DNA of 64,000 nt from Pseudomonas antarctica. Its GTDB lineage: Bacteria; Pseudomonadota; Gammaproteobacteria; Pseudomonadales; Pseudomonadaceae. Each line of letters opens with the position of its first letter. Position 1 is the first letter of the stretch. The translations under genes were made by a program, and so were the position numbers. Shown piece after piece: positions 13,560 through 44,910 of this stretch. The stretch is taken from the NCBI RefSeq assembly GCF_001647715.1, contig NZ_CP015600.1, forward strand, positions 5,518,001 to 5,582,000, in the 5' to 3' direction. The notes beneath the pieces are model-generated. The model was not told the origin of the DNA and did not search any database. It saw nothing but the letters and a program-made list of their open reading frames with translations.

Positions 13560-13956
13560 GGGGCCGTTTAGGATTCGACGCCGGTCGCGAAACTTTAGGT
13601 GCATGCCGAGTTGGTAACAGAACTCGTAAATCCACTGTTGCAACTTCTTATAGTTGCCAATGACGAAAACTACGGCCAGGAATTCGCTCTCGCTGCGTAA
13701 GCAGCCTTAGCCCTGAGCTTCTGGTACCTTCGGGTCCAGCAATCACCAGGGGATGTCTGTAAACCCAAAGTGATTGTCATATAGAACAGAATCGCCGTGC
13801 AGTACGTTGTGGACGAAGCGGCTAAAACTTACACAACTCGCCCAAAGCACCCTGCCCTTCGGGTCGCTGAGGGTTAACTTAATAGAAACGGCTACGCATG
13901 TAGTACCGACAGCGGAGTACTGGCGGACGGGGGTTCAAATCCCCCCGGCTCCACCA
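13560..13956 (+). ncRNA. ssrA: Transfer-messenger RNA (ssrA)
   Basis: tmRNA of 397 nt that rescues stalled ribosomes with SmpB. The 5' GGGGCCG pairs with the 3' CGGCTCC to form the tRNA-like acceptor stem, and the T-arm (GGGTTCAAATCCC) and an encoded CCA end are present. The tag frame runs 13,656-13,700 with resume codon GCC and encodes ANDENYGQEFALAA then TAA. It keeps the LAA degradation signal but is longer than the 10-residue P. aeruginosa tag. The 3' end is the attachment site for the island that follows. Confidence 0.97.
13934..13956 (+). other. Left attachment site (attL) in ssrA 3' end
   Basis: The T-arm and CCA end of ssrA (TTCAAATCCCCCCGGCTCC then ACCA). A diverged copy lies at 31,798-31,819, and a P4-type integrase begins 188 bp downstream. 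Such integrases commonly insert at tRNA or tmRNA 3' ends, restoring the gene. The exact crossover point cannot be read. Confidence 0.7.
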
Positions 13957-13993: not shown

Positions 13994-14066
13994 GTGCCTG
14001 AAATCCAGAGAATACGGGGGTTTCAGGGCTATTGGGGGCTTTCGAGGTTTTTTGAGTTCCAGGCTA

Positions 14067-14122
14067 TTTGGTATTCCCAATGGTATTCCCGGCTACCCGA
14101 GGCTAATCTTGGGAATACCAAA
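14067..14122. repeat. GGTATTCCC repeats before integrase (putative arm sites)
   Basis: Two direct copies of GGTATTCCC (14,070-14,078 and 14,082-14,090) and one inverted copy (14,111-14,119). The outer pair form a perfect 14-bp inverted repeat TTTGGTATTCCCAA / TTGGGAATACCAAA. Similar GTATTCCAA repeats lie at the right end of the island. They are candidates for integrase arm-binding or excisionase sites and lie directly upstream of the integrase start. Confidence 0.5.
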
Positions 14123-14143
14123 AGGTGTCATGGAGTACTTCTC

Positions 14144-15400
14144 ATGTGCGCTCAAACCACCCGCCTCTCAGACCGCCAGCTCAAGGCGATCAAACCGAAA
14201 GACAAGGATTACGTCCTCACCGATGGCGACGGGCTCCAGCTGCGAGTCAGGGTCAATCGCTCGATGCAGTGGAATTTCAACTACCGACATCCCGTCACCA
14301 AGAATCGAATCAACATGGCGCTCGGCTCCTATCCCGAGGTTTCTCTAGCGCAAGCCCGGAAGAAAACGGTTGAGGCCAGAGAGCTGCTCGCGCAGGGCAT
14401 GGACCCCAAAGCTCAGCGCAATGAGTTGCTGGAAGCAAAACGGGCGGAGACAGAACACACGTTCGAGAACGTGGCCACCGCCTGGTTCGAGCTGAAGAAG
14501 GATTCGGTTACGCCGGCGTATGCCGAAGACATCTGGCGCTCGCTCACGCTGCACGTTTTTCCAAGCATGAAATCAACGCCGTTATCGGAAGTGAACGCCC
14601 CGATGGTCATTAAGCTGCTTCGTCCGATTGAGGCCAAAGGCAGCCTCGAGACGGTTAAGCGAGTGAGCCAGCGCCTTAATGAGATCATGACCTACGGGGT
14701 CAACTCCGGAATGATCTTTGCCAACCCTCTCAGCGGCATTCGAGCGGTGTTCAAGAAACCCAAGAAAGAGAATATGGCCGCGCTACCACCTGATGAGCTT
14801 CCGGAGCTCATGATGGAAATCGCGAACGCCAGCATCAAGCGGACGACCCGCTGCCTGATTGAATGGCAACTTCATACCATGACCCGCCCTGCCGAGGCGG
14901 CCACCACTCGATGGGCAGACATCGACTTCGACAAACGCATCTGGACCATCCCTCCGGAGCGAATGAAAAAGCGTCGTCCGCACACAATCCCGCTGACCGA
15001 ACATGCACTCTCGTTATTGGAAACGCTTAAGCCCCATAGCGGGCACAGGGAATATGTGTTCCCGTCAGATAGAAACCCGCGCACCCACGCGAATAGCCAG
15101 ACAGCCAACATGGCATTGAAACGAATGGGTTTTCAGGACCGCTTGGTCAGCCACGGCATGCGCTCCATGGCCAGCACAATCCTGAACGAGCATGGGTGGG
15201 ATCCGGAACTAATCGAAGTCGCGCTGGCGCATGTCGATAAAGACGAAGTTCGGAGCGCCTACAACCGGGCGGATTACATTGAGCGCCGACGCCCAATGAT
15301 GGCTTGGTGGAGTGAGCATATTCAGAAGGCGGCAACGGGTAGCCTGTCGGCATCTGCGATCAATCAAATCAGAGACAGCAACATCGTGCCGATACGCTGA
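14144..15400 (+). CDS. P4-type tyrosine integrase
   Basis: Site-specific recombinase that inserts and excises the island at ssrA. The 418-residue protein has the DUF4102 arm-binding domain (LSDRQLKAIKPKDKDYVLTD; MALGSYPEVSLAQARK), a core-binding SAM-like domain (about 100-200) and the catalytic domain with Arg in TMTRPAEAATTRW, SHGMRSMAST, and the His/Tyr region LAHVDKDEVRSAYNRADY. Start at MCAQTTRL, preceded by GGAG; the frame extends 50 codons upstream into the repeats and ssrA terminator side, which is implausible. A broken copy of its 3' end recurs at 22,202. Confidence 0.93.
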   Translation: MCAQTTRLSDRQLKAIKPKDKDYVLTDGDGLQLRVRVNRSMQWNFNYRHPVTKNRINMALGSYPEVSLAQARKKTVEARELLAQGMDPKAQRNELLEAKRAETEHTFENVATAWFELKKDSVTPAYAEDIWRSLTLHVFPSMKSTPLSEVNAPMVIKLLRPIEAKGSLETVKRVSQRLNEIMTYGVNSGMIFANPLSGIRAVFKKPKKENMAALPPDELPELMMEIANASIKRTTRCLIEWQLHTMTRPAEAATTRWADIDFDKRIWTIPPERMKKRRPHTIPLTEHALSLLETLKPHSGHREYVFPSDRNPRTHANSQTANMALKRMGFQDRLVSHGMRSMASTILNEHGWDPELIEVALAHVDKDEVRSAYNRADYIERRRPMMAWWSEHIQKAATGSLSASAINQIRDSNIVPIR

Positions 15401-15554: not shown

Positions 15555-18500
15555 TCAAGCGGCCGCACTGCGTTTGATTGCGGTGATCACCGAAATGATC
15601 GCGTTGGCATCAGCGTCGCCAAACGCACCATCTAATCCCTCATGATGCAGTGCGGTAAACGGCGGCTCGTAGAGCTGGCCCGGCTCCATCACGCCCTGCC
15701 GGGTGAGACGCTCAATAATCATTTCAACAAAACGAATCTGCTGACTACTGTAACGGTTCTCGTCGAGGAATTGACCGAAAGCCTCTTTTGCGGCGTTACG
15801 GTCCAAGCCTACCAATGAGCGGATCAACAGAGTCAGCGGCTGGTCAGCGCCATAGCACTGTTCGAACTGCTCGCGACTCTGAACCGGTTCCGACTCGTAG
15901 ACAAAATGCTCCAGCTCGCTCAGATCGCTCGGCGTCAGCGGCCGGTTGAATTTGAGCTTGGCGATTGCCACGTGATTCTCGTTGCCACGGATATAGACCT
16001 CGACCTTTTTCTTGTACTGCTCCAAATTGATGCCAGTGTTGAAATCTTTCAGGTTGACCACCGTCGCTACGCCAATTTCGTCGCTCAGCACGCTATAAAC
16101 AGGGTTGCTCGGACGGCGCTCGATAAACTTGATCAGCTCGCGCATCTTGCGCCGCAGTTGCTCAAGCATCGGCAAGCGGATGTCCTGCCAGTACTCGTCG
16201 GTTTGCACGTCCTGAAGCAACGCCAGCTCAGCATGCACTGCCGGAACGCTGTCCATCACTTCTAGCTGGCTGGCCAGCTCGACCACCTTATCGCGATACG
16301 TCACGAAGTCGCTGGTCGAGCGCACTAACGCCAGCTGTAAATTCAGGCACAGGAGATCGAACAACTTGGCAGTGATGTGCTCAGGAGCGCGCTCACTCGG
16401 CAAGCCGGCGACGTGACTGCTCAGATCACCCAGCGCCGCATCATCCAGCGCATTCCAAACTTCACGCTCGGCAAAGCGGGTTACGTGCTCAAGTTCGGTA
16501 CGCACGATGAAGTTGTCCGTATTCATCGCCGCGACTTCGTCGTGCAGCTCGTCGGTCAACTCCGTGCGCAGCTCGACAAAGGCATCGTACCGGCCCCTGG
16601 TTTCCGCCAGATCACCAGACTCGCGAACTTCCTTCGGCGCTAACAACGACAGCAGATCCAGCCGCGCTTTGAACAACCGCTTGCCTAGCGGTTCGGCCGT
16701 ACCGCCCAAAGCGCCTTTAGGGTTTTCGTTGAAGTATTCGAAGTTGGCGCAGAAGTCGAAGATGGCGAACTCGCGCTTGTGTACACCCGGCGCAAACAGG
16801 TCCGGGCATAGGCGCGTGCCGCGGCCGATCATCTGCAAAAACTTCACCTTTGAGCGAACGGCCTTGAAGAACACTAAATTCAGCACCTGTGGCACGTCGA
16901 TGCCGGTATCGAGCATATCCACCGAAATGGCGATCTGCGGCTGCTTATTCAGCTTGCTGCTGAAGTCATCGATCAGGGTCTGCGCATAACTCACCGCATG
17001 GGTGATAACCCGCGCAAACTCACCCTTAAATTGCGGATAATGATGATTGAAGCGCCGGGCGATAAAATCGGCGTGCTTTTGGTTCACTGCAAAAATAATG
17101 GTCTTGCCGAGTTTGTCACCACCTTCCACTGTCAGGCCATTTTGCATCAAGTGCTTTAGCATCAGGTCAACAGTTGGCTCGTTGAACAACTGCTTGTTGA
17201 CCTCAGATGCCTGCACCTCGGTGGGGGCAAGGCCGTCTCCGCTGTAGTCACCCCAATCCAGCGATTCCCAGTGCTCTTTCTCGTCATCGGTGAGTTGATC
17301 GTAACGGATACCTTCGCGCACAAACTTGATCGGCACCGAATACGCCTTGGGCGGCACCAAATAACCGTCATCCACTGCCTCATTTAGGCCGTAGGCGTCG
17401 GTCGGCACACCGGTTTCCAAGCCGAACAGGTGATAGGTATCGCGATCCACTTCGTCACGCGGGGTGGCGGTCAGACCCACTAGATAACTGTCGAAGTAAC
17501 GGAAAATAGCGCCGTACTTCTGGTACACGCTGCGGTGTGCCTCATCGATTACGATCAGGTCAAAGTGGCCAACGCCGTACTTGCGACGGTCGCCCTCCAT
17601 CTGTTCGATCAAGCCCATCATGGTCGGATAGGTACACAGATACACCCGACCTTGGCCGTTTTTGTCGGTAACCAGGTTAACCGGACTGGAGGCCGGCAGG
17701 AACTCCTTGAAGGCGTTGGCGGCCTGCTTTACTAAGGCCACTCGGTCGGCAAGAAACAGCACACGTTTGACCCAGTTACCGCGCATCAGCAGTTCGATCA
17801 GGGCAATCGACATACGCGTCTTGCCGGTGCCGGTGGCCATGGTTAGCAAACCTGCACGGCGGCCCAAGTTCAGTGATTCGGTCATCGCTCGAATCGCCCG
17901 GTGTTGATACGCCCGCTCAACAATCTCGCTATTGATCGGCAGTTCGCGTAAGTCGGTTTGTAGGCTGCGCCGCTGAATCGCCAATTCCAGTTCATCTCGG
18001 GTATAAAAACCCTGCACTTCGCGTGGCGGTGCACGGCGGTCGTCCCACAGCCAAGTGTGATTACCGTTGCTGTAGAAAATCAGCGGCCTCTGGCCCTTCT
18101 CGGCCTCCAGGCAATCGGCGTACAACTTGGCTTGCTGCTGCCCCACGTCCGGGTCTTTCAAGCTGCGCTTGGCTTCCACCACCGCCAACGGTTTGCCATT
18201 GGCACCCCACAGCACGTAATCGACAAAACCCTCGCCTTGCCCGTTAGGCATGCCGCTGACTGGCACTTCGGCGTCAGCGTTTTTGCCCAATTCCCAACCG
18301 GCCTCGCGCAGCAGCACATCGATAAACAGACGGCGGGTGTCGGCCTCGTCGTAATCATGGTTATCCGGCACTGCGATATTGGTCGCCTTGGCCTGGGCCA
18401 GCGCCGCACGGGTGGCAACCAGTTCGGCATCCAGTCGCGCCAGCAGCGACTCGCGCTCACTCAGGCTTGCGGCTTGCTCGGCAATCGCCGCCTCGCGGGC

Positions 18501-19031
18501 TTCAAGGGTGCCATGTTGGGCTGCAATCTGTTCCTGGAATTTGGCTTCCTGCTTTTTAAGTTCCGCACGGGTAAAGGCAACTGCCTCATTCATGCTAACG
18601 AGCTGAGGCACACGTTTTTCGTCAAACGCAGCGTCGATACTTTTTGGGTCGCTGGCGCGGGTATAAGTGCGTGCCAGCCAGAACAACACGTGAAACAGCT
18701 CGCGTACCAGCCTCATTGCATCGCTGTAGCCAATCGCTTGATTGGAATGCACCGCCTGATTGCCAAACTTCTGAATCAAGCGCGTCTTTTGATGAATTTG
18801 CGGGGGCAGCAGGCGAACGAACTCCACCTGAGTCAGCAGCAGATTAAGGCCGTTGTCGTAAGGCATGCGCAGGTCGCGATCATGCTCGTACAGCCAATGC
18901 ACCGTCTGCTCCAGCGCATGACGGGTACGCATGCAACAGGCACGCGGGTCAGAATACACCAGGTGTTCCGCCCCCTTGGCCGGCTCAAACAGCGCTTTAA
19001 ATTCGGGGATGAGAAATTCAAAGTTGCTCAT
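15555..19031 (-). CDS. hsdR: Type I restriction enzyme R subunit HsdR
   Basis: ATP-driven translocase and nuclease subunit of a type I restriction system. The 1158-residue protein has an N-terminal DUF4145-like region (1-125), a coiled coil (about 150-215), the HSDR_N nuclease with D271 and E286-A-K288 (VVEAKRS), a helicase with Walker A ATGTGKT (399-405) and DEAH (496-499), motif VI QMIGRGTRL, and a C-terminal EcoEI-R-like domain. Key nuclease and ATPase residues are intact. It is the last gene of the hsdM-hsdS-hsdR set, with a helicase remnant between it and hsdS. Confidence 0.95.
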   Translation of the reverse strand: MSNFEFLIPEFKALFEPAKGAEHLVYSDPRACCMRTRHALEQTVHWLYEHDRDLRMPYDNGLNLLLTQVEFVRLLPPQIHQKTRLIQKFGNQAVHSNQAIGYSDAMRLVRELFHVLFWLARTYTRASDPKSIDAAFDEKRVPQLVSMNEAVAFTRAELKKQEAKFQEQIAAQHGTLEAREAAIAEQAASLSERESLLARLDAELVATRAALAQAKATNIAVPDNHDYDEADTRRLFIDVLLREAGWELGKNADAEVPVSGMPNGQGEGFVDYVLWGANGKPLAVVEAKRSLKDPDVGQQQAKLYADCLEAEKGQRPLIFYSNGNHTWLWDDRRAPPREVQGFYTRDELELAIQRRSLQTDLRELPINSEIVERAYQHRAIRAMTESLNLGRRAGLLTMATGTGKTRMSIALIELLMRGNWVKRVLFLADRVALVKQAANAFKEFLPASSPVNLVTDKNGQGRVYLCTYPTMMGLIEQMEGDRRKYGVGHFDLIVIDEAHRSVYQKYGAIFRYFDSYLVGLTATPRDEVDRDTYHLFGLETGVPTDAYGLNEAVDDGYLVPPKAYSVPIKFVREGIRYDQLTDDEKEHWESLDWGDYSGDGLAPTEVQASEVNKQLFNEPTVDLMLKHLMQNGLTVEGGDKLGKTIIFAVNQKHADFIARRFNHHYPQFKGEFARVITHAVSYAQTLIDDFSSKLNKQPQIAISVDMLDTGIDVPQVLNLVFFKAVRSKVKFLQMIGRGTRLCPDLFAPGVHKREFAIFDFCANFEYFNENPKGALGGTAEPLGKRLFKARLDLLSLLAPKEVRESGDLAETRGRYDAFVELRTELTDELHDEVAAMNTDNFIVRTELEHVTRFAEREVWNALDDAALGDLSSHVAGLPSERAPEHITAKLFDLLCLNLQLALVRSTSDFVTYRDKVVELASQLEVMDSVPAVHAELALLQDVQTDEYWQDIRLPMLEQLRRKMRELIKFIERRPSNPVYSVLSDEIGVATVVNLKDFNTGINLEQYKKKVEVYIRGNENHVAIAKLKFNRPLTPSDLSELEHFVYESEPVQSREQFEQCYGADQPLTLLIRSLVGLDRNAAKEAFGQFLDENRYSSQQIRFVEMIIERLTRQGVMEPGQLYEPPFTALHHEGLDGAFGDADANAIISVITAIKRSAAA

Positions 19032-19127
19032 ATCAACCGGCTGCCTTCTGTGAGTCCATCTGGTCCAGGTGCTGGCGCACGCTGCCTATTGAATCCTGAA
19101 TCCTGCGGGTAAAACTGGTGGCTCGCG

Positions 19128-19412
19128 TTAGGTCATCACCAACCGATCAATCGCGCGAGTCATGGCCACGTAAAGCAAACGCGCCTGTCGGCCTCATCTT
19201 CGCCCTTTTTCGGCATGTCACCCAGGCCAGGAACCAGCACCACCAGACCGAACTCCAAGCCCTTGCTCGAATGCATGCTGACGATCTTGACTGCATCCTC
19301 ATTGCCATACAACGCACTGCGACCCTTGGACAACTGGCCCGAGGCAAAGGCGATGTCGGCCTCACTCAACGCCCGCTCGATGCGTTGTGCCTGGGCGGTG
19401 CTCCACCCATCC
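19128..19412 (-). pseudogene. UvrD-type helicase C-terminal remnant
   Basis: Between hsdS and hsdR the minus strand encodes the tail of a UvrD/PcrA-like helicase: VKIVSMHSSKGLEFGLVVLV (motif V region) in one frame, then after a single-base frameshift near 19,195 ARLLYVAMTRAIDRLVMT and a stop (motif VI). The N-terminal helicase body is missing; the fragment begins right beside the hsdS stop codon. It is a relic of a gene once next to the restriction genes, not a working protein. Confidence 0.85.
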
Positions 19413-19419
19413 TAATTTC

Positions 19420-20586
19420 CTACAGTTCGCCGTTAAAGGCACGGTCTTGCAGGCTAGCGAAGAGGGCGTCCTGCTGTCCAACGTGTTCTTGCAGGGTGCG
19501 CTTTTGTTGTTCGATTTTTTTGGCGAGACTAGCAAATTGGCATTGCAGTTCGAGTGAAGGCACAGGCATTGGCAGTTTCCGTAAGCCAGGGCCACTAAAG
19601 TTCTGCTGCGCAGCTTGGCGCGACTTCACTGCAATAAATTTTTGAATGGATTTAGTCCGGAGTGCAGCGAATACGTATTCGGGCAAAACCGAATTATTGA
19701 CCTGAACTCGTATGAAGTATGCACCTGCGATGCTCGGCGGATCTGACGCTTGGATTAACGCAACTTTCCCAACGGTCGCACCTGTTCGTGCAAAGATTAT
19801 ATCCCCAGGCTGCAACACGAATCGCACCTGCACGTTTTCTTCCACGTCCATTCTAGGCATGGCATCAAAATCTAGTTCGCCCGTTGGACTGAGATCGGTG
19901 ATTCTGACAATCTTTATTCCGTTAAGTGAATAAGCCTCGTTATGAAAACGTGGCCCGTACTGCATGTCTAAAGCAATATCGCCGAGCGTTGTATTGCCCG
20001 GCCAGCCCTTCGGATTTGTCACCGGGTCGCCGAACATTTCCAGAAACACGGTCTGCAGCAGTTGATCGAGCTTGACGATGGCTTCGCGGCGCTTGGCGCG
20101 CAGCGCGTCGGCCTTGTCCAGAATCGCCGTGATACGGCGTTGTTCGGGAAGTGGGGGGAGCGGGACAGGTAGCTCGGCAAGCCTGGCGAATGAAATTGCA
20201 GCGCGCCGGTGCACTGATCCTTTAGAAAGTGTTGGATAAGCTGAAAGAGCCTTTGGTGACTTCAGAAAGCGCTCAAGGTAACTAGCTTCTGCTTTGGTTT
20301 CATCGATTCTAAAGACGGTATACATCGGACTTATTAGTGAGAGTTCAGGGCAAACTCCGATAGAACCTTCGTCAAGATGGATGGTTGCGTAGGCCAGCTC
20401 GCCCGCAACAACCATCTTGTACCCTTTTGTGTCTAGACTGAAAACCTGCTTCTTGAAGTACTCAAGACTCGGAACAAATCCTTGATGCTTAGTGACTGAA
20501 TAAACGGGAAGGTTCGCCTCTGAAGGAGCCCTGCGACTTATTTCATTAGCGAAATCGCCTAGTCGGGTGAGATAGGTTGAGGTCAC
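19420..20586 (-). CDS. hsdS: Type I restriction specificity subunit HsdS
   Basis: DNA recognition subunit that sets the target for methylation and cleavage. The 388-residue protein has two target-recognition domains (about 1-140 and 195-350), each followed by a conserved helix: LPPLPEQRRITAILDKADAL near 143-162 and a C-terminal one (FASLAKKIEQQKRTLQEH). The start overlaps the hsdM stop by 4 bp, so translation is coupled. The variable domains do not allow the target to be predicted. Its stop lies 8 bp from the helicase remnant. Confidence 0.94.
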   Translation of the reverse strand: MTSTYLTRLGDFANEISRRAPSEANLPVYSVTKHQGFVPSLEYFKKQVFSLDTKGYKMVVAGELAYATIHLDEGSIGVCPELSLISPMYTVFRIDETKAEASYLERFLKSPKALSAYPTLSKGSVHRRAAISFARLAELPVPLPPLPEQRRITAILDKADALRAKRREAIVKLDQLLQTVFLEMFGDPVTNPKGWPGNTTLGDIALDMQYGPRFHNEAYSLNGIKIVRITDLSPTGELDFDAMPRMDVEENVQVRFVLQPGDIIFARTGATVGKVALIQASDPPSIAGAYFIRVQVNNSVLPEYVFAALRTKSIQKFIAVKSRQAAQQNFSGPGLRKLPMPVPSLELQCQFASLAKKIEQQKRTLQEHVGQQDALFASLQDRAFNGEL

Positions 20587-22067
20587 AGCAACATCCCCTC
20601 CAGTTCATCCATCCCCTGCATAATCTCTGCCTCCAGCGCCTTCAACTCGGCCAGAATTTTATGCGGCGCTTCGTGCTGCACTTGTTCGTACACTACCTCC
20701 TTGTAGCGGTTGATTGACAGGTCGTAGTCGTTGCCGACGATTTCCGCCTTGGGCACCAGAAAGCTCTGCTCGGTACGCGCGCGGCTGGTTTCGTCGGCAC
20801 AGTTATGCCAGCGGGCGATGATGTCAGGTATGTTGTTGCTGTTATGTTTACTCGTTTCCAACTCGCTGCGTTTATCGTCCAGAGAGTAGCCGTCGGCCTG
20901 CATGTTGTAGAACCAGACGTTATCGGTGCCGCCAGAGTTGGTTTTGGTAAACAGCAAAATAGCGGTGGATACCCCAGCATAAGGGCGGAACACCCCAGAA
21001 GGCATGGAGACGATGCCGTCCAGCTTGTGCTCTTCCACTAGCATCCGTCGTAGCGTCTTGTGAGCCTTGCTGGACCCGAATAGCACGCCGTCCGGTACGA
21101 TCACCGCTGCGCGGCCTCCTGCCTTCATGAAGCGCAGGAACAGGGCGAGAAACAATAGCTCGGTCTTTTTGGTTTTAACGACCTGCTGCAGATCTTTGGC
21201 GCAGCTCTCGTAATCCAGGCTACCGGCAAACGGTGGATTAGCCAAGATTAGGCTGAACTGCCCTTCAACACCTGCGTGGCCTTCGCTGAGCGAGTCACGA
21301 TTTTCAATCGCCGGGTTTTCCACGCCGTGCAACAGCATGTTCATGGAGCCGATGCGAAGCATTGTGCTGTCGAAGTCGAAGCCGTGGAAGGTGTCATGGT
21401 TAAAGCGTCTGGCGCTGGCTTCGTCTTGGTATAGCTCGTGGCTGTAGTGAGTATTGAGGTATTCGGCAGCAGAGACCAGAAAACCGGCGGTGCCGCAGGC
21501 CGGATCACAAATGGTGTCCGACGGTTTGGGCGCCATCATCTCGACCATCAATTTGATAATGTGCCGGGGCGTACGGAACTGACCGTTCTGCCCAGCGCTG
21601 GCAATTTTGCCGAGCATATATTCGTAGAGGTCGCCCTTGGTGTCACGGTCTTCCATGGGGATGGCGTCGAGCATGTCCACCACCTTGGCCAACAGCGCCG
21701 GGTTGGGAATGGTGAAGCGCGCATCCTTCATATGCCCGGCGTAGGTCGACTCGCCATTTTCACCACCCAACGACTTGATAAAAGGGAACACCTTATCGGC
21801 AATCAGCGTGTACAGACTGACCGGATCACCCAGTGCTTTGAACGCTGCCCAGCGCAAATGCGCCTGGTAAGGGCTGAAAATCGGCTGATCAATCGGCTGC
21901 CCGGTGCGCGCGGCCTTGCGCTCTTTAACCGTCTGCAACTCGTCGAGGCGTTTAATAAACAGCAGGTAGGTCATCTGCTCGATGACTTCCATGGGGTTTG
22001 AAATACCGCCGCTCCAGAATGCATTCCAGATCTGGTCAACTTGGGATTTGATAGCGCCTGTGATCAC
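20583..22067 (-). CDS. hsdM: Type I DNA methyltransferase subunit HsdM
   Basis: Adenine-N6 methyltransferase subunit of the type I system (494 residues). N-terminal HsdM helical domain (DQIWNAFWSGGISNPMEVIEQ), SAM-binding motif DPACGTAGFLVSA (188-200) and catalytic NPPF (277-280). It is the first gene of the minus-strand hsdM-hsdS-hsdR group. With HsdS it forms the M2S1 methylase that protects host DNA. All catalytic motifs are present. Confidence 0.95.
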   Translation of the reverse strand: MITGAIKSQVDQIWNAFWSGGISNPMEVIEQMTYLLFIKRLDELQTVKERKAARTGQPIDQPIFSPYQAHLRWAAFKALGDPVSLYTLIADKVFPFIKSLGGENGESTYAGHMKDARFTIPNPALLAKVVDMLDAIPMEDRDTKGDLYEYMLGKIASAGQNGQFRTPRHIIKLMVEMMAPKPSDTICDPACGTAGFLVSAAEYLNTHYSHELYQDEASARRFNHDTFHGFDFDSTMLRIGSMNMLLHGVENPAIENRDSLSEGHAGVEGQFSLILANPPFAGSLDYESCAKDLQQVVKTKKTELLFLALFLRFMKAGGRAAVIVPDGVLFGSSKAHKTLRRMLVEEHKLDGIVSMPSGVFRPYAGVSTAILLFTKTNSGGTDNVWFYNMQADGYSLDDKRSELETSKHNSNNIPDIIARWHNCADETSRARTEQSFLVPKAEIVGNDYDLSINRYKEVVYEQVQHEAPHKILAELKALEAEIMQGMDELEGMLL

Positions 22068-22201: not shown

Positions 22202-22342
22202 TACAACCGCGCGGACGACATAGAACGCCGCCCCCCGATGATGGCTTGGTAAAGTGAGCATATCCAGAAGGCTGCCACTGGCAGCCTTCTGGCATCTGCG
22301 ATCAATAAAACGCAGGACCGCAACGCCGTGCCGATACGCTAA
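22202..22342 (+). pseudogene. Broken duplicate of the integrase 3' end
   Basis: Forty-seven codons matching the last residues of the island integrase (15,260-15,400). It reads YNRADDIERRPPMMAW, then a stop where the intact gene has a second Trp, then SEHIQKAATGSL and a tail ending VPIR. The similarity continues into the DNA after the gene (22,440-22,484 against 15,446-15,490). So an older or second element of the same family once ended here. Confidence 0.88.
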
Positions 22343-22562: not shown

Positions 22563-22923
22563 CACATTTAAAAGACGACGAACGGCTCATCGTCCATCCA
22601 ACGCCACTCATGACCAAGGCATTCCTGCACCGCTGGTTGGCGCAATCGACTGCGCGCAATCCGGTTGACCCAACCATATGCGGACGATAGAAGGAACACT
22701 CAAAGCGCTGCCGTTGGCAGCTCCCAGGTGGCCCGAACCTTTGAGGCTACGCCACATCGTGGTGGTTCTTTCCCAAGTGCGATTAGCGTCCGGCGGCTCG
22801 CACGATCACTACCCATGTGATGGATGCCTACTTCTTCCAGAGCGCCCACTGCGGCAACTCATGCCCCCTCCTGGCTGCTCTGCAGCAACTTATCCGCTTG
22901 GCCATTTCTTGCGCCAACCTGTT

Positions 22924-22953: not shown

Positions 22954-23375
22954 GCATCTCACACTGCTGCAGCCTTGCACGAATGGGGCTTTGCGGCTTT
23001 CCCCCTCGTGACAATCGGCGTGACAAACACCGAATGCTCACTCGCTACAGTGATGCAGATGATGGTGCCGCAGCCCACGGAATGGACTGCACCTGACTGA
23101 CAGTCAGGCATGCCCCGGTCATCGCCTCACTGCCTTCACCGACTCAGGATCTCGCGGCACCGGTCTCGTCAGCCAGTGCAGCCTCCACCCGCCCACTTCT
23201 TCGGAGGTGTTCAGGAGGCCAGGTCATGAGATGCCCAAGCTCCCGGTCGTAAGGAGCCGTTAGTCCCGCGTGAGTGGACAAACCTCACAGGTCGCAGGGG
23301 CCTTGATCCCTGATAACACTCAACAACCGTGGCGGGATGAGTGAGGACGAAGTCGATAACCTCGGGAGAATAGCG

Positions 23376-24776
23376 ATGCAATTGTGCGAAGCGTTCGAGC
23401 CACCACAACCGTTGCTGGAATACCAGCAGGCGCCACGGCCCTACCCGGTCGAAGCACTCGGGGGTCTGTTAGGCCCTACGGTCGAACGACTGTCCGAGGT
23501 GATCGGCGTGCCCTGCGCCATGGCTGCACAATCGGTGCTGGCCAGCGCGGCTCTGGTGAGCCAGGGTCATGCCAATGCCCAACTCGACGGCCGAACCTAT
23601 CCGCTATCCCTCTACCTACTGACAGTGGCGTCCTCGGGTGATCGCAAAAGCGCGGTGGATCAGCAGGCACTGAACGCCGCACGCGACTGGGAGCGACAGC
23701 AGTGGACCCTGTATGCAGAAAAGCTCAAAGCCTACCGCGCCGCTACCAGCATCATGACCAAACCCAAAACCTCAAAGAAACACGCGGAGGCGGAAGGCGG
23801 TGAGCTATCCGAGCCGGTACCGCCGAGACTGATCATTGCCGAGCCCACCATTGAGGCTCTGGTCAAAAGCCTGTGCCATGGCTTGCCCAGCATGGGCTTG
23901 TTCAATGATGAAGGCGGCCAGTTCTTGGGCAGCAGCACCATGAGCAAAGAGAACTTGCTCAAGGCGATCACCACCTTGTCGACACTCTGGGATGGCAGCC
24001 CGATCGACCGGGCGCGCTCCATGGCCGGAGAAAGCCTGCGCGCCTATGACCGCCGCCTTAGCCTGCATCTGATGTTGCAACCCTATCTGGCCGAGCAGCT
24101 GTTCAAAGACCCGGTGATCAATGGCCAAGGCATCCTCGGCCGTTGCCTGATCAGTTGGCCCGAACGCCTGGTCGGCCAGCGGCTCTACAAGGCAATTGAC
24201 CTGAACCACGACGCCAGAGTCCAGCGCTACCAACAGCGGATCACCGCTCTGCTACAAAAGCCCTGGTCGCTTCATAAGGATGGATCACTTAATCCCGCCA
24301 CGCTGGTGCTGACATCCCGTGCCCGTCGTGCCTGGATTGATATTCACGACACCATCGAATGTCAGTCTGGCGAGTTCGGCGAGCTGGCCGGCGTCCAGCC
24401 TGTTGCGAGCAAGGCGGCGGCGAATGTACTGCGGATCGCCGGTGTGCTGGCCATGGTTGAAGAAGCCAGTGCGTTGGACGAAGCACACATCCAGCGCGCC
24501 TCCACGCTGATGGACTACTACCTGGCTGAGATCCAGCGTCTGACTGAACAGGAGCCAATAAATAGTCGACGCGAGGAAGCGGATCGGCTGCTGCGCTGGC
24601 TGGTGCAGAAAGGCCGGACCCACTTCACCATCCGTGACGTCAATCGCAACGGCCCTCGTTTTGCTCGCAAGAGCGCTGACCATACCGCCTCTTTATTTGC
24701 CGAACTGATCATTCATCGCTGGCTGAGCAGCCACGATGGAAAAACCTTCGAGGTCCGCCATGTTTCGCCTAAATGA
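23376..24776 (+). CDS. DUF3987 (YfjI-like) protein
   Basis: A 466-residue protein of the DUF3987 family, found in phage satellites and genomic islands and probably a P-loop ATPase or helicase of the primase-helicase class. A degenerate P loop is visible in VASSGDRKSAVDQ (GDRKS in place of GxGKS), and FNDEGGQFLG may be the Walker B region. Start chosen at the ATG with GGGAG 7 bp upstream; an ATG 13 codons earlier (23,337) is possible. It heads an overlapping four-gene plus-strand cassette. Exact function unknown. Confidence 0.82.
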   Translation: MQLCEAFEPPQPLLEYQQAPRPYPVEALGGLLGPTVERLSEVIGVPCAMAAQSVLASAALVSQGHANAQLDGRTYPLSLYLLTVASSGDRKSAVDQQALNAARDWERQQWTLYAEKLKAYRAATSIMTKPKTSKKHAEAEGGELSEPVPPRLIIAEPTIEALVKSLCHGLPSMGLFNDEGGQFLGSSTMSKENLLKAITTLSTLWDGSPIDRARSMAGESLRAYDRRLSLHLMLQPYLAEQLFKDPVINGQGILGRCLISWPERLVGQRLYKAIDLNHDARVQRYQQRITALLQKPWSLHKDGSLNPATLVLTSRARRAWIDIHDTIECQSGEFGELAGVQPVASKAAANVLRIAGVLAMVEEASALDEAHIQRASTLMDYYLAEIQRLTEQEPINSRREEADRLLRWLVQKGRTHFTIRDVNRNGPRFARKSADHTASLFAELIIHRWLSSHDGKTFEVRHVSPK

Positions 24777-25128
24777 CGCGGTGCGCCGCTACCAGGCGCA
24801 ACATCAACCCCAGCCAGAATTGCGGTGTGTCGCCGCCTCTGTCGCCACCTTGTCGCCACGCGACAGGCCAGAAACGACGCGGGTTGTCGCCACTGTCGCC
24901 ACTGTCGCCGCTGTCGCCACACCACCACTCGACTCTGCGCACATCGCGCATCTGATCGAGAAACTGCGTGAGGAAGGGGCACTGCTGCAACACCAGGAGA
25001 ACACCCTGCTGATCCGCCCGACACACTGGCAGCAGGTGGACAGGCTCAGCCCTCATTGGAAAGCCCTGCTGCTCTTTCTGCAAACAAACGAACACGGTGG
25101 TGACGATGGCACTGGTCGGTCGGCGTGA
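24760..25128 (+). CDS. Small island protein with VAT repeat
   Basis: A 122-residue protein whose start overlaps the DUF3987 gene by 17 bp and whose end overlaps the recombinase gene by 23 bp. It starts MFRLNDAVRRYQAQ after a GAGG site. The middle holds a low-complexity VATVATVAAVAT run encoded by the 9-bp TGTCGCC repeats. The C-terminal half (IAHLIEKLREEGALLQHQEN; HWQQVDRLSPHWKALLLFL) looks like a small folded domain. No family recognised; expression coupled to its neighbours. Confidence 0.65.
   Translation: MFRLNDAVRRYQAQHQPQPELRCVAASVATLSPRDRPETTRVVATVATVAAVATPPLDSAHIAHLIEKLREEGALLQHQENTLLIRPTHWQQVDRLSPHWKALLLFLQTNEHGGDDGTGRSA
24885..24918 (+). repeat. Four TGTCGCC repeats at 9-bp period
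   Basis: TGTCGCC at 24,885, 24,894, 24,903 and 24,912, with three more irregular copies at 24,828, 24,840 and 24,851. It is the reverse complement of the GGCGACA array at 22,400. Being 9 bp it also keeps the reading frame of the overlapping small gene. Confidence 0.6.
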
Positions 25129-26086
25129 GGGTCGCAATTTTGGCTACGGTCGTCAGCTGAGCTACGCCGGCCCACAGGCGCTAAAAGATCTATTTGCCGG
25201 CGGCCACTTCGCCACAGTCAAAGCGCACAGCGATCGCTGGCAGGCGTTCGTGCGCTGGTGTCGATCAGAGTTAGGCCCCGGTTGCAACGATGCGCGCCAA
25301 ATCGACCGACAGACACTGCAGGACTATGCCGCGTACCTGCGTCAGCAGATCCAGCTAGGCGAACTGTGCATCGCTACCGCGCAGAACCGCCTGAGCAGTG
25401 TCAACCGTACCCTCGCTGCGTTGCGCGGTGATCAGGACGTGAGGATCGCCAGTCCGAGCCAGGCGTTAGGACTGCAGCGCTCGAGCGTACGCACCCGCGC
25501 GCCGGATGGCCAAGATCATCAACAGGTGCGGCGAGCACTCGAGGCGCTTGGCGAATGGCAACACGAGCGGGTGGCCGCGATTGTCCTTTTGGCCCGAGCA
25601 GCCGGTATGCGTCTGCGCGAAGCGATCCTGGCTGACCTGCCACGACTGCAACGCGAAGCCGAACACTTAGGCCGCATCAACATCCAGGACGGCACCAAAG
25701 GCGGCCGTTCAGGGGCATCAGCGCCGCGATGGGTTGTGGCCAATGAAGAGGTGAAAGCGGCACTGCAGTTTGCTCGTAAGGCATCACCGTCCCGCAGCCG
25801 CAACTTGCTGGCCCGAGAAGAAAGCTACGCCGCATTCCTGCAACAGACCGTGCTCCCCGCCCGCGAAACGCTGCATGAACACGGGCTGAAGGGTTTCCAT
25901 GAACTGCGAGCGGCCTACGCCTGCGAACGCTACGAGCAGCTCACTGGCCACGCCGCACCGGTCAATGGTGGCCACTGCTATCGCATTGACCGCGACCTTG
26001 ATCAACAGGCGCGCCAACAAATCAGCCTTGAGCTCGGGCATAACCGGATCGATGTGGTTTCGGCCTACATTGGAGGTCGAGCGTGA
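25106..26086 (+). CDS. Tyrosine recombinase of the Integrase_1 type
   Basis: A 326-residue tyrosine recombinase. N-terminal SAM-like domain (about 25-120; ATVKAHSDRWQAFVRWC) and a catalytic domain with Arg in AAGMRLREAI, Lys in DGTKGG, HELR as the His/Arg pair, LELGHNR and the nucleophile region VSAYIGG, so all catalytic residues appear present. Start taken at MALVGRRE; an ATG three codons earlier is possible. It differs from the P4-type integrase at the island's left end. Its function may be resolution, inversion or mobilisation of the inner cassette. Confidence 0.85.
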   Translation: MALVGRREGRNFGYGRQLSYAGPQALKDLFAGGHFATVKAHSDRWQAFVRWCRSELGPGCNDARQIDRQTLQDYAAYLRQQIQLGELCIATAQNRLSSVNRTLAALRGDQDVRIASPSQALGLQRSSVRTRAPDGQDHQQVRRALEALGEWQHERVAAIVLLARAAGMRLREAILADLPRLQREAEHLGRINIQDGTKGGRSGASAPRWVVANEEVKAALQFARKASPSRSRNLLAREESYAAFLQQTVLPARETLHEHGLKGFHELRAAYACERYEQLTGHAAPVNGGHCYRIDRDLDQQARQQISLELGHNRIDVVSAYIGGRA

Positions 26087-26358: not shown

Positions 26359-27046
26359 CGCTCGAATCGTGGATAGGCAATCCTCCAGGCTCGCTTGCCC
26401 GCCTTCATCTGTTTCAGCGTGGATATTCTCTTGCTGAATGAACCTGCTCGAAGAACAGCGCCGCAATGGCAAAAAACAACCCAAAGCGGTTAGTCGTGAC
26501 AGGCCGATAACGGCCGATTGTGTTGAAAAAGTCGGCGTCGGTTTCCACGGCAGAAAAGTACGCGCCTGAGATTGAAATCTGTAATTTACGCAGAGGGTTC
26601 AGGGCTCATATTTAGGGTAGCAGCGTGCAAAGAAGGCATTTTCACAGATCAATGTATGGGTAGCCAGGCGGGTCGACTTTTTCAACACTATCGGCCAGAA
26701 GGACTGTTACGCACAGTGAAGCAGCGACCCATTCTGCGAAGGTCACAAGTGACAGTCGAACGTTGCAAAGTTGCGCGCTTCCCTGCAAATTCCGGTAAGG
26801 GCATGTTTCAGATATCAATGAGCCAAGATCCAACTAACCAGTTACCAATCCCAGCCTGGGCGCTGGATACTGCATGATGCGATGGGACCGGCATGCCCTC
26901 AACCTTAATGGATCATGGGGTTCATGTGCCGAAACAAGGGAAATCGCACAGACATCAACCAGCAAATTAAGAGATCAGTACGCGCTCCACTATTTCATCG
27001 CTGCACTTTTCAATCACAATCACGCATCAAAACCCTGGAGAGCGGT
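26359..27046. other. Intergenic stretch with a MITE-like insertion
   Basis: About 690 bp without a supported gene between the recombinase cassette and the DUF2158 gene. It contains a 185-bp element with 23-bp inverted ends (26,512-26,696). An open frame at 26,572-26,877 crosses the inverted repeat and has no protein character. The rest shows nothing I can identify. Confidence 0.5.
26512..26696. mobile_element. MITE-like element with 23-bp terminal inverted repeats
   Basis: GGCCGATTGTGTTGAAAAAGTCG (26,512-26,534) faces its inverted copy at 26,674-26,696, with 22 of 23 positions identical. The 185-bp interior has no gene. This fits a non-autonomous, transposase-less insertion mobilised in trans. 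GTTGAAAAAGTCG-type ends are common for IS in Pseudomonas, but the family cannot be named from this sequence. No clear target duplication was seen. Confidence 0.6.
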
Positions 27047-27259
27047 ATGACGTTTAAACCTGGCGATGTTGTACAACTGAAATCCGGCGGCCCGCACATG
27101 ACCGTAGAACAGATTGGCGAGGCTGCAATGACAGGTGAAAGCACCGTTTGGTGTGTATGGTTTGAGAAAGTTGGTGGCCGCCAAACACGACACGAAGCGA
27201 CCTTTCGACCGACCTCGCTTGAAATTACGTCAATGTCTTTCGAAATCACCAGTATTTAG
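27047..27259 (+). CDS. YodC-like DUF2158 small protein
   Basis: A 70-residue protein of the DUF2158/YodC type: MTFKPGDVVQLKSGGPHMTV, then VWCVWFE and a HEATFRPTSLE end, a small beta-barrel like fold of unknown function. Start chosen where the family motif begins, with GGAG 6 bp upstream. It ends 11 bp before the caspase-helicase start, so both are probably one transcript. It may be a regulatory or chaperone partner of that protein; this is inference. Confidence 0.8.
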   Translation: MTFKPGDVVQLKSGGPHMTVEQIGEAAMTGESTVWCVWFEKVGGRQTRHEATFRPTSLEITSMSFEITSI

Positions 27260-27270: not shown

Positions 27271-30264
27271 ATGATGCGCGCCGCGTTCCTGGGGATTGAT
27301 AGGTATCACGATCCGTTAGTGGGTGATCTGACGGGGGCGGCGCGGGATGCGACGGCACTGTGGGCCGTCATGTCGGATTCAATAGAAGGCTTGGATGCCC
27401 AGTTGATTACCAACGAAGATGCCACTGTAGATGCGATGAGGGCGGCGATAGAGGCCACCTTGAGTGCAGCCAACGAGGATGATGTCGTCATGTTTGGCTT
27501 CGCGGGGCATGGGACACCGGACCATCGGCTCGTACTGCACGACACAGAAGTTGATAATTTACCTGGCACAACACTTGGGATGGACGAACTCGCGCGATGG
27601 TTTCGCGGCACGAAAGCGCGGGCCGTCATTCTTCTTTTGGATTGCTGCTTCAGCGGCGGAGCGTCCGCGCGGGTTCTCAACGTAGGGTTGATACCACGCA
27701 ATGCTGTTGCTTTCCCATTGGTCGAAGTGGCTGGCCAGGGTCGCATTTTGTTTGCCGCCTCATCCGCAGATCAGGAAGCAATGGAAGATCCACAGTCACG
27801 CCACGGCCTGTTCACAAAGGCGATTATAGACACTCTATTGGCTGCGGACGCTCCCCTTGGGATGCTGGAGTTGGTGGATAAAGTCACGCGGCTTGTCAGT
27901 GTCAACGCGCAGCGCTATGGGTATGTACAGTCGCCCACCATGTTTGGTCAGACACAAGGAGAGGTCCTAATACCACCGGGTCGCGTAGGCGACCGTTATC
28001 GTGCCGCCTTCCCAGAATATGGAAATTTTCAAACGAACGGCGAGATTCTCGAACTCACGAACGCAGGCATTCCTAACGAAGCGGCGGATGCTTGGAATGA
28101 GCGTTTCCCAGCTGGCCTTAATACCTTGCAGATTGATGCGATCAACGACAAGGGCGTGCTGAGTGGCCAATCCCTCATGGTCGTAGCTCCAACCAGCGCA
28201 GGAAAGACTTTCATAGGCGAACTGGCCGCAATTAAAGCCATCGCAGCAGGGAAAAAAGCCGTTTTTCTGCTGCCTTACAAGGCGTTAGTAAACGAAAAAT
28301 TTGAGGATTTTTCGGCACTTTATGGTGATCGGTTAGGTCTTCGGATCGCCCGGTGTAGCGGCGACTGGCAGGACCAAGTAAGCACCGTTCTGCGGGGCAA
28401 GTACGACATTGCCTTCTTTACCTATGAGAAATTTTTAAGCCTGTCAGTTTCTTCATCCCATATGCTCAATCAGATAGGGTTGGTGGTCTTGGACGAGGCT
28501 CAATTCATCACCGAGCCTGGACGAGGCATGGTGGTAGAGTTATTGCTTACCAGCATAATCAGCGCTCGGCGCCGGGGCGTGTGCCCTCAGCTCATCACGC
28601 TAAGCGCCGTCATAGGCCACGCCAACAGCATGGACAGCTGGCTCGGTTGCGGATTGCTTCAAACGAATTATCGACCCGTGCCTTTGATCGAAGGTGTGAT
28701 GGATCGAAGCGGCGCTTTTACTCGGCTTGGACCGAATGGGCCGGAAACAGTGCAGTTAATCGCCCGTCACGAAATCCGGCAACGCCGCCAAAAACCGTCC
28801 TCGCAAGACATGATCGTGCCCCTCGTACGCAACCTCATAGAAGCCGGGGAAAAGGTTATTATTTTTCGTAACGCGCGTGGACCGGCGAGTGGTTGCGCCG
28901 AATATCTCGCAAGTGAGCTTGGGCTGGAGGCGGCACAAGACGTAATTGACGCACTGCCCGAAGGCGATCCCTCCGCAATGTCCCAAAGTCTGCGTCGTGC
29001 TCTAGCTGGCGGCGTGGCATTTCACAATGGCGACTTGACACGCGACGAGCGAGTGGCGGTTGAACGCGGCTTTCGAGAGCCCAATGGACTAATCAAAGCC
29101 CTTGTGGCGACGAGTACCGTAGCAGCTGGAGTAAACACACCCGCATCAACCGTCATCATTGCCGAAACAGACTTCCCCGGCCGATCCCGCACCCCCTACA
29201 CAGTCGCGCAGTACAAAAATATGGCCGGACGTGCTGGTCGCCTTGGCTATGAAGCCGAAGGTCGATCAGTCCTTCTCGCCGAAACACCCATGGAGCGAAA
29301 CCAGCTCTTTCGAACATATGTGCAAGGAACGCCCGAAGCGATTACCTCATCTTTTGATTCAGCTCAGCCCGGCACCTGGACTATTCGTCTTCTAGCACAA
29401 GTCCGAGAGGTTCCGCGTGATGCGGTCATTGACCTAATCGCAAACACCTACGGAGGTTTCCTTGCCGCGCTGCACTACCCCAATTGGCGGGATCGTATGG
29501 CCAGCTCGCTGGAACAGCTCCTTAACCGAATGATTGATCAAGGTCTGATTGACCAAGAAGGCGAAAACCTCCGCCTGACCATGCTTGGACGTGCATGTGG
29601 CGAATCACCTTTGGCTCTGGAATCTGCCCTACGACTGGTGGAGCTAGTACGTCGTCTCACCCCTGCCGATGCAACACTGGAGAATCTGCTCGTTCTCGTA
29701 GAGGTCCTTCAAGAGCGTGATGAAGATTACACGCCACAGAGCGGCCGAAACGGAGAACCACGATGGCAGCAAGAAGCTATTGTTCGGTTTGGCCCAATTA
29801 TTGGTCGTGGATTGGCTCACAGAGCAGAAAGCGATTTAGCGTTTTATGCTCGGTGCAAACGCGCACTCATTGTGAATGACTGGATCGCAGGCGAACCGAT
29901 AACCGGCATCGAAGCCCATTACTCGGCCAATGCTTACTCTCGCGTGGGACACGGTGATATCCGAGGGTATGCTGATGGCTCACGTTTCATCTTAGAGTCA
30001 GCATTACGCATTGCTGCCATTCTGCTAGGTCGGGCCGAGGATGAAGAAGCCACGGCGCTGCTATTCACCCGGCTCGACCATGGCTTACCTGCCGAAGCCC
30101 TACCATTGTTAGCAGGCCCCTTCACTTTAACGCGTGGGGAGGCTCTGGCGCTCTACCGTGCTGGACACAGAAGCTTCGAAGCGATCTCAACGCTAGGGGA
30201 GCAGGCGCTAACGGCAATTGTCGGGCGTCGTGGTAGTAAATTGCTCGCGTTACTCAATCCGTAG
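27271..30264 (+). CDS. Caspase-like protease fused to Ski2/Hel308-type helicase
   Basis: A 997-residue fusion. Residues 1-225 are a caspase (peptidase C14) domain: FLGID start, catalytic His80 in FAGHG and catalytic Cys126 in LLDCCFSGG. Residues about 280-700 are a DEAD/DEAH helicase resembling Ski2/Hel308: Walker A APTSAGKT (306-313), DEAQ (408-411), ATSTVAAGVNTP, and motif VI QYKNMAGRAGR (647-657). A winged-helix/helical region and a C-terminal helix-hairpin-helix-like segment (TLGEQALTAIVGRRGS) follow. All key residues are intact. Likely role: nucleic-acid-sensing helicase that unleashes a protease in antiviral defence (inference). It follows a DUF2158 gene by 11 bp. Confidence 0.88.
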   Translation: MMRAAFLGIDRYHDPLVGDLTGAARDATALWAVMSDSIEGLDAQLITNEDATVDAMRAAIEATLSAANEDDVVMFGFAGHGTPDHRLVLHDTEVDNLPGTTLGMDELARWFRGTKARAVILLLDCCFSGGASARVLNVGLIPRNAVAFPLVEVAGQGRILFAASSADQEAMEDPQSRHGLFTKAIIDTLLAADAPLGMLELVDKVTRLVSVNAQRYGYVQSPTMFGQTQGEVLIPPGRVGDRYRAAFPEYGNFQTNGEILELTNAGIPNEAADAWNERFPAGLNTLQIDAINDKGVLSGQSLMVVAPTSAGKTFIGELAAIKAIAAGKKAVFLLPYKALVNEKFEDFSALYGDRLGLRIARCSGDWQDQVSTVLRGKYDIAFFTYEKFLSLSVSSSHMLNQIGLVVLDEAQFITEPGRGMVVELLLTSIISARRRGVCPQLITLSAVIGHANSMDSWLGCGLLQTNYRPVPLIEGVMDRSGAFTRLGPNGPETVQLIARHEIRQRRQKPSSQDMIVPLVRNLIEAGEKVIIFRNARGPASGCAEYLASELGLEAAQDVIDALPEGDPSAMSQSLRRALAGGVAFHNGDLTRDERVAVERGFREPNGLIKALVATSTVAAGVNTPASTVIIAETDFPGRSRTPYTVAQYKNMAGRAGRLGYEAEGRSVLLAETPMERNQLFRTYVQGTPEAITSSFDSAQPGTWTIRLLAQVREVPRDAVIDLIANTYGGFLAALHYPNWRDRMASSLEQLLNRMIDQGLIDQEGENLRLTMLGRACGESPLALESALRLVELVRRLTPADATLENLLVLVEVLQERDEDYTPQSGRNGEPRWQQEAIVRFGPIIGRGLAHRAESDLAFYARCKRALIVNDWIAGEPITGIEAHYSANAYSRVGHGDIRGYADGSRFILESALRIAAILLGRAEDEEATALLFTRLDHGLPAEALPLLAGPFTLTRGEALALYRAGHRSFEAISTLGEQALTAIVGRRGSKLLALLNP

Positions 30265-30504: not shown

Positions 30505-31026
30505 CTAAGTCAGCGATGATGTATAGGTCGGTACGAACGCAATAATGGACGCTACGACCGCATAAATCACATATTTCGAACACTGGTCGAGCTGACTGCT
30601 ACGCCTGTCATTATTCTTAGCATTTCGCGTTGCGCCCATAATGTAGTAATCCATCATGATCTGCATGAACCAGCCATTGGCTTCAACAATGTCACCATCA
30701 TAGTAGGTAATCAGGAACCTGCGGTGAGATTCAAGATCCTCGGCCGTGGGTATCGCTAGATCATCTAGGCGTACCCGCCATCCTTGTGAGAAATGCGCCA
30801 TTGCCACCAGTACGAAGACGACAGCCATTAAGTATGAAATCCAAAAATACACTCCGGCGGTAACCGCTACCGGAGGTGCCTTCGACAGTAGATAAGACAA
30901 AAAGCTGAGGACCGCTACAATCATTGCAAGGGGTAGGTTAAGACGCCCCATCAACTTCTCTTTCCTATCCGCCTCCGCGAGATAGATTTTTTCGTAAAGC
31001 TTGTACTCTTCGTCGTCTGACTTCAT
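30505..31026 (-). CDS. Three-helix membrane protein, unknown function
   Basis: A 173-residue protein with an acidic/basic N-terminal helix (DDEEYKLYEKIYLAEADRKEK), two adjacent membrane segments (about 31-47 and 53-79), a soluble middle part (80-150) and a third membrane segment at the C terminus (about 151-167). This layout is reminiscent of small membrane effectors in bacterial defence systems such as SLATT-like or Pycsar-like proteins, but no motif proves it. Its start overlaps the upstream frameshifted gene (ATGA). It converges on the caspase-helicase gene. Confidence 0.7.
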   Translation of the reverse strand: MKSDDEEYKLYEKIYLAEADRKEKLMGRLNLPLAMIVAVLSFLSYLLSKAPPVAVTAGVYFWISYLMAVVFVLVAMAHFSQGWRVRLDDLAIPTAEDLESHRRFLITYYDGDIVEANGWFMQIMMDYYIMGATRNAKNNDRRSSQLDQCSKYVIYAVVASIIAFVPTYTSSLT

Positions 31027-31863: not shown

Positions 31864-32247
31864 TCTGGAGGGTGGAAAGTCCAGCCGGCGGGCCTTCGGA
31901 TTTTTCCTTCAAGATGTCCCGCTGTCAGTGAACCGGCTCCCCTCCACCCACGCGGCTCACCTCCCCCATTCGCAGTAAACCTGCCGCCGGGTTTAGCCAC
32001 TCGGCAATATCACGGCCTGCAACACCCACATCCGCTCAGCACCTGCTGGACCGCGTTACGGCGGCTGTGCGTGAGGCACTTTCGGATGCACTGGGTTCCT
32101 TGATTCCTGGTCTGCTAACCCGCGTACAGTTGCCACCCTGTTTCGATCAGCAGGGCGAGACGCCTCACAACGCCTCGCCCGCTGGAATCCCCTCACACTT
32201 CCCATTACCCTGACCGCCTTTATCAGACAACCGGAAGTCCGATACCC

Positions 32248-44481: not shown

Positions 44482-44910
44482 GGTGTACCTACTAAGTGAG
44501 ATAAAGGACCACCACAACACGTCGCTAAACATAAAGGGGTGGCAGCTGTACGCAGGTTAGCGAACCGGTCACCTAGACACCCGGCAGATCCGAAGATCTC
44601 CCGCGCACAGCCGCCATAACACGATATCGACAAGCACAAAAACCGCCTGCCAAGTGTGTAAAGAGGATGAGTCTTAGTGATTCGGGTCGCTAAACCCGGT
44701 CGCTGCTTTCACAGCGAAGCCAGGAGACTAGTGACCCAAACCCTAAGGCACAATAGGCCAAGGATTCTCTAGGAAACGTCCTGCAATTTAAAGAGAATCG
44801 TCGTTGATGGCCCTTTAGCCCAACACCTTTCTCACCTCGCTTTCACACCGCCCCAACAAATCCCTGACTAGACTTCCCCTATCAGCCGGGAAACGGCCAG
44901 GGAGTACGCC
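44482..44910. other. Intergenic region upstream of DUF6124-type gene
   Basis: About 430 bp with no supported gene. A short hairpin (CGCTG..CAGCG, near 44,700) and a repeated GGTCGCT / GTGACC pattern occur around 44,680-44,740. No tRNA-like fold or REP copy was found. Probably promoter and leader DNA for the two flanking divergent genes. Confidence 0.4.

Follow-up and report, generated by a model that had tools for sequence, protein, structure and literature searches.

A caspase–Hel308 helicase fusion carried by mobile DNA in Pseudomonas antarctica, a putative one-chain anti-phage sensor-effector

Introduction

What might a protein that joins a caspase-like protease to a helicase in one chain do on a mobile island of Pseudomonas antarctica? 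The gene in question (27271..30264, + strand; 997 aa) lies in a 64,000-nucleotide stretch of contig NZ_CP015600.1, the whole of which is called the window here. A sequence-only reading had proposed a self-contained anti-phage protein and had known of no named system with this fusion.

Helicase sensors and caspase effectors are separately known in bacterial immunity. In the accessible text of two reports, PflHamMAB requires its helicase, protease and nuclease (PMC12799240; PMC12278908), and the accessible part of the latter describes HamB of Hachiman as loading on single-stranded 3ʹ ends or forks and Hel308 as absent from bacteria (PMC12278908). Escape mutations of Canu fall in the phage helicase gene dda, according to the part available of PMC12799240. 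The pairing of caspase and helicase domains appears in published tables: 12 of 671 bacterial metacaspases are credited with helicase activity (PMC3501461), three cyanobacterial orthocaspases have DEAD and three have Helicase_C (PMC8283722), and DEXDc stands in a cyanobacterial list (PMC7475262). The portions available of the first two give counts alone and assign no system, mechanism or defence role. The literature searched, which excluded preprints, supplements and most subscription journals, contained no named caspase-helicase defence system, in agreement with the earlier reading, and no defence system with both parts in one chain.

Results

Predicted folds of the two halves

The N-terminal half (residues 1–235; 27271..27975, +) is a C14, metacaspase/paracaspase-like caspase domain that matched Pfam PF00656. 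As fold searches with the whole model returned only helicases among the matches listed, the caspase part was modelled alone with AF2 and compared with the PDB by Foldseek and VIA. These searches gave a caspase fold, the outcome on which the sequence-only reading had staked its assignment of residues 1–225. With this fold and a catalytic dyad of His80 (codon 27508..27510, +) and Cys126 (codon 27646..27648, +), the latter in a D-x-C-x-S-G motif, the half fits the C14/PF00656 caspase-like peptidases in structure. The nearest NCBIfam caspase model was NF047832 (EACC1-associated caspases; 4e-29), and assignment to that family was rejected, as the 101.6 bits obtained lie below its 140-bit cut-off.

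The Hel308-type helicase occupies residues 257–997 (28039..30261, +) and was recognized by both profile and fold searches. Walker A (APTSAGKT, 306–313; 28186..28209), motif II (DEAQ, 408–411; 28492..28503) and motif VI (QYKNMAGRAGR, 647–657; 29209..29241), all on the + strand, were located by alignment, so that the superfamily 2 helicase, previously judged intact from its motifs, is supported by both fold and conserved residues. The helicase scored 253.7 bits with the Hel308 model NF040935 and 1.7e-58 with the Hel308 structure 2zj2, compared with at best 114.7 bits for HamB and 8.3e-22 for structure 8vx9. The best PADLOC HamB match (9.2e-34) covered the helicase core alone, came from a model without a curated cut-off and ranked below the Hel308 models. 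The fold and motor motifs place this half among the Hel308 DNA helicases; the NCBIfam Hel308 equivalog of archaea and metazoa was rejected as an identity for the protein, because 253.7 of the 1200 bits of its cut-off were reached and the protein carries an N-terminal caspase. In sum, a metacaspase/paracaspase-fold protease joined to a complete Hel308-fold helicase is predicted with good confidence.

Conservation of the active sites and the loop after Cys126

A search of 5.8 billion proteins yielded 1082 matches at E ≤ 0.001 from 7992 scored candidates. Caspase and DEAD domains were both present in 119 of the 120 matches listed of these 1082, the sole exception being P0108 (900 aa), which had no PF00656. 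After the five shorter of 121 sequences were dropped, 116 sequences of at least 960 aa, the P. antarctica protein included, were aligned. Among these listed matches, His80, Asp124, Cys125 and Cys126 of the caspase and Gly311, Lys312, Asp408, Glu409, Gly653 and Arg654 of the helicase were invariant (116/116), and Arg657 was kept in 115 of 116; the dyad earlier described as apparently complete is conserved in all of them. In a separate set of 33 sequences from loci, 31 of which cover the caspase part, His80 was found in 31/31 and Cys126 in 30/31. The exception, L015 of Verrucomicrobia (L015:9989-13015), has Ser at this position (DCSFSG) with the remaining motifs intact, and its protease activity may be absent.

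In the full model, pLDDT fell below 50 only at residues 129–135 and 139–148, just after Cys126, and in the caspase-only model at residues 128–133. This poorly modelled stretch (129–148; 27655..27714, +) contains Arg143, invariant in the 116 aligned matches listed and in 31/31 of the locus set, and a basic residue 134, which was Arg in 116/116 of the former and Arg in 28/31 or Lys in 3/31 of the latter. Self-processing at Arg143 is predicted from this combination, and we infer that the loop is a candidate activation or self-processing loop. Asp26 was kept in all 114 ungapped aligned sequences among the matches listed and in 31/31 of the locus set, and Asp124 and Glu172 were each kept in 116/116 and 31/31 of these two sets. 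The HMMER alignment set Gly22-x-x-x-Asp26 opposite Gly-Cys-Cys-Asn-Asp of the trypanosome metacaspase MCA2. Acidic residues of this kind, including the D-x-C Asp, make up the S1 pocket that accepts Arg or Lys in metacaspases and MALT1, and on this likeness cleavage after basic residues is predicted.

Comparison with Hachiman and Canu

The fusion resembles Hachiman (HamAB/HamMAB) in coupling a Ski2-like helicase, here a putative sensor, to an effector, but here the protease is a caspase in one chain with the helicase, and the helicase scores higher with Hel308 than with HamB. A two-gene Hachiman was rejected, as no HamA match was obtained among the ten window proteins scanned, including 26915-27256 and 30505-31026. 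With Canu (CanABC, a caspase-nuclease system) it shares a caspase-family protease, anti-phage in Canu and putatively so here; however, the caspase of Canu comes with an Ig-like part and a pro-nuclease encoded apart, whereas the present protein has its own helicase. Canu was likewise rejected: the fusion gave no Ig-like Pfam match and, with the caspase extending to 235 and the helicase starting at 257, leaves no space for one, and the gene directly downstream lies on the opposite strand and gave no nuclease match. Nor was there a nuclease match in either of the genes directly adjoining the fusion gene.

The island carrying the gene

The mobile setting proposed earlier was borne out. The island runs in the order tmRNA (13560-13956), tyrosine integrase (13994..15400, +), type I restriction-modification genes hsdR, hsdS and hsdM (15555..22067, −), DUF3987 gene with a second integrase (Integrase_1; 23337..26086, +; Pfam), DUF2158 gene and fusion gene. 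In the relative genome G029, about 4.8 kb with other genes separates the tmRNA region from a gene related to the glycosyltransferase-like one at 33402. In G028, a similar integrase precedes a DUF3987/integrase module that resembles the present one, and the cargo differs. Judged from these layouts, the variable accessory slot spans roughly 14.0–33.4 kb. A second copy of the tmRNA 3ʹ end was sought as the right attachment site, and the pattern (≤3 mismatches) matched the genome only once, so the right end of the island is placed inexactly. The type I restriction system named in the sequence-only reading does lie on the same island, but it is not a conserved companion: neither it nor the integrases nor DUF3987 had a counterpart (E ≤ 1e-10) in any of the 36 relative loci, and one short hsdR-helicase match (3e-6) was seen in the congener locus L053.

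Several smaller features were observed in this region. A radC RNA motif (22694-22827, +; Rfam) lies ahead of the DUF3987/Integrase_1 module, and G028 has a stretch similar to this region beside its tmRNA integrase (about 68–82% identity in pieces). At 22202-22339 (+), 46 codons share 80% identity with a section of the integrase at 13994-15400; they may be left over from a second integrase and mark a junction of nested islands. C4 antisense RNA, which belongs to P1/P4-type elements, was matched twice together with its targets (Rfam; 32054-32140, +; 44535-44621, −; 44679-44731, −); these matches may perhaps mark satellite or prophage remnants. Convergent with the fusion gene, 30505-31026 (−) encodes a 173-aa protein with hydrophobic stretches, which had neither a PADLOC match nor a relative among the other clustered loci.

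Distribution among genomes and plasmids

At E ≤ 1e-100, the fusion was found in three of 199 genomes of the genus (P. antarctica and two at 49% identity) and in one of 398 genomes of a phylum sample, that of P. antarctica itself. Caspase-bearing records include Alphaproteobacteria, the cyanobacterium Moorena, Verrucomicrobium, Bacteroidota and Nitrospirota, and colinear relatives with conserved active sites extend to 38% identity. A Marinimicrobia contig (L023) has the later helicase part alone. The two congeners (L053 and L054) are 95% identical over a block of 3.7 kb that comprises the gene and short flanks. Their contexts are otherwise unrelated except for one further 133-base match, and the fusion gene appears to move alone in this clade of about 49% identity. 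Elsewhere in the P. antarctica genome, a 607-aa open frame has a weak second caspase-like match (L026, G000:C1:5669587-5669820; 32% identity over residues 51–131, E 7.7e-5).

Among 72,556 plasmid records, 13 matched the fusion, 12 of them over at least 80% of its length; five of the 13 were typed as conjugative and two as mobilizable. The thirteenth, from an archaeon (H13), encodes a helicase without caspase motifs. Ten of the 12 near-full-length cases were inspected (H1, H3 and H5–H12), and annotated defence-type genes lay within 9 kb in seven: multiubiquitin/ThiF, XamI restriction-modification with SAVED, Piwi, caspase, ABC-three component, and TIR with caspase twice. H3, H9 and H12 had no clear defence neighbour within 9 kb by annotation; two of its genes in H3 (in L028) do, however, group with ThiF and DUF6527 genes from L003 and L027. 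In searches of phage records and viral contigs there was no fusion relative, one set giving no match and the other one helicase-only match covering 21%. Two further arrangements were seen on plasmids. L032 and L033 form a deep branch at 38% identity with TIR and caspase genes nearby, and a gene of about 203–239 aa overlaps the start of their fusion gene. L029 has a second helicase gene (L029:15738-19961, −; 1154 aa) beside a SAVED-domain gene and XamI restriction-modification.

A DUF2158 gene upstream in one clade

The fusion gene is preceded, at a distance of 11 bases, by a gene for a small DUF2158 protein (27047..27259, +; PF09926, 2e-13). Its conserved part begins at M45 of a longer open reading frame (26915-27259), from which the start was inferred. 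The gene lies directly upstream (E ≤ 1e-15) in 15 of the 16 relatives of at least 62% identity that have upstream DNA (L001–L010, L013, L016, L018, L019 and L027), cases that are partly non-independent, with L003 and L027 from one species and L009 and L010 from one genus. In L020, the remaining relative, the match spans 22 residues (E 0.006) and reads as a shortened copy, and the gene is broken by an in-frame stop in L009 and by a frame break in L002. Thirteen relatives of about 52% identity or less (L011, L012, L014, L015, L021, L022, L024 and L028–L033) gave no DUF2158 match at E ≤ 0.01, nor did L053, L054 and L060–L062, so the companion is confined to the clade of the P. antarctica gene; judging from these neighbourhoods, no substrate is conserved across the whole fusion family. 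This companion was absent from the earlier account. The description of the protein as self-contained suits the clade of about 49% identity, in which the gene and short flanks alone are shared, and perhaps does not suit the P. antarctica gene, with its conserved DUF2158 neighbour directly upstream.

Defence genes around relatives

We compared nine loci with paired controls drawn from their own nine genomes, stretches of 20 kb at other positions that were not matched for mobile DNA (106 neighbour and 109 control proteins of at least 200 aa). At E ≤ 1e-30, 54 PADLOC families were matched among neighbours and two among controls (dGTPase and mad3, one protein each, in at most two of nine control stretches), indicating an association with defence genes above this unmatched background, as expected for the anti-phage reading. 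In single-protein scans, 11 neighbour proteins in six of the nine loci were assigned to PADLOC matches (one-sided Fisher p 0.008 for 11/106 vs 2/109, with proteins treated as independent; p 0.015 with 10 neighbours, when two PDC-S06 pieces in L008 are taken as one gene). The count of 11 omits GajA, PDC-S36, two UvrD-like matches and 29 of the 54 families. Named after the PADLOC models, the matches were LmuA, LmuB and LmuC (Lamassu models) with AbiEii in L014, AbiEii with AbiEi in L024, the PDC-S06 pieces in L008, GajB in L015, IetS in L013 and a DpdF-like protein in L022. L003, L016 and L019 had no single-scan match; the two UvrD-like matches probably belong to L003 and L016, which would bring the total to eight of nine loci.

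In L014 (L014:3848-13012), lmuA, lmuC and lmuB are followed directly by the fusion gene on the same strand, with the AbiEii gene upstream. Outside the nine loci, L021 has a LmuB-like gene, and the nine proteins scanned in L053 gave no more than a weak Lit-like match (5e-17) and one to a helicase (1e-12). In L003, L016, L018 and L027, the fusion gene is followed by a common block of a 285–304 aa gene, a 191–192 aa gene and a UvrD helicase gene, whose 1133-aa product has M78 and PD-(D/E)XK parts; in L027 this block is followed by multiubiquitin/ThiF/DUF6527 genes.

Discussion

Mobile DNA carries the gene, and defence genes often accompany it. We consider it on balance probable that its product is a putative one-chain anti-phage sensor-effector, the reading best supported by the folds, conserved active sites, mobile DNA, defence neighbours, patchy distribution and the precedent of HamB. 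The association with defence genes falls short of proof of function, because mobile DNA generally collects such genes.

A protease–helicase fusion might instead repair DNA-protein roadblocks or crosslinks, with the Hel308 motor meeting bound proteins and the protease clearing them in the service of the element or the host. SPRTN-type proteases are a model for such clearing, the helicase half belongs with Hel308, a DNA repair type, and the fusion would deliver a protease directly to DNA-bound proteins. However, occurrence in 3/199 congeners and 1/398 genomes of the phylum sample, together with defence-gene neighbours, ill suits a housekeeping role, and we regard this explanation as unlikely. 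We give equally little credence to a weapon of one element against another, aimed at competing plasmids or other mobile DNA and not at phages. The 12 near-full-length plasmid copies, the integrative island and the lack of a fusion relative in phage records or viral contigs would fit it, but the PADLOC-named neighbour systems are mostly anti-phage, and the two roles are not exclusive, as the same sensing logic would serve phage and plasmid targets. Less probable again is a module of larger neighbouring systems, such as the fourth member of Lamassu-like SMC operons. In L014 (where lmuA and lmuC are also present), L021 and L024, a gene for an SMC-type ATPase immediately precedes the fusion gene on its own strand, but this holds for these three loci only; no such gene adjoins the fusion in P. 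antarctica, and L053 and L054 have in common, at 95% identity, nothing beyond the gene and short flanks. A decayed gene or chance joining of reading frames, for which the natural Ser126 variant of L015 is the sole argument, can be dismissed, since colinear relatives down to 38% identity keep the active sites and conservation across the 116 aligned sequences among the matches listed rules out a chance fusion.

For the anti-phage sensor-effector, a specific mechanism can be proposed tentatively, with somewhat less than even confidence, in which a bacterial Hel308 senses phage DNA intermediates and its motor strokes activate its own caspase, making the protein a one-polypeptide immune receptor and bacterial counterpart of helicase-sensor-to-caspase signalling. 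The Hel308 part would load, as HamB does, on single-stranded 3ʹ ends or forks arising from phage replication or damage. ATP-driven movement would then relieve the N-terminal protease, and loop 129–148, disordered at rest, might become ordered or be cut at Arg143 upon activation. The protease would cleave after Arg or Lys, which Asp26, Asp124 and Glu172 would fit as S1 residues, and cleavage of host or phage proteins would halt growth or phage replication. In the P. antarctica clade alone, the co-encoded DUF2158 protein could act as regulator, adaptor or substrate, and most readily, under this proposal, as a regulator.

This reading predicts DNA- and ATP-dependent cleavage after Arg or Lys, self-processing at Arg143 and a role for DUF2158. 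If true, it would provide a minimal link from DNA sensing to proteolysis and would place a Hel308-type motor in bacteria, contrary to the absence stated in the accessible text of PMC12278908.
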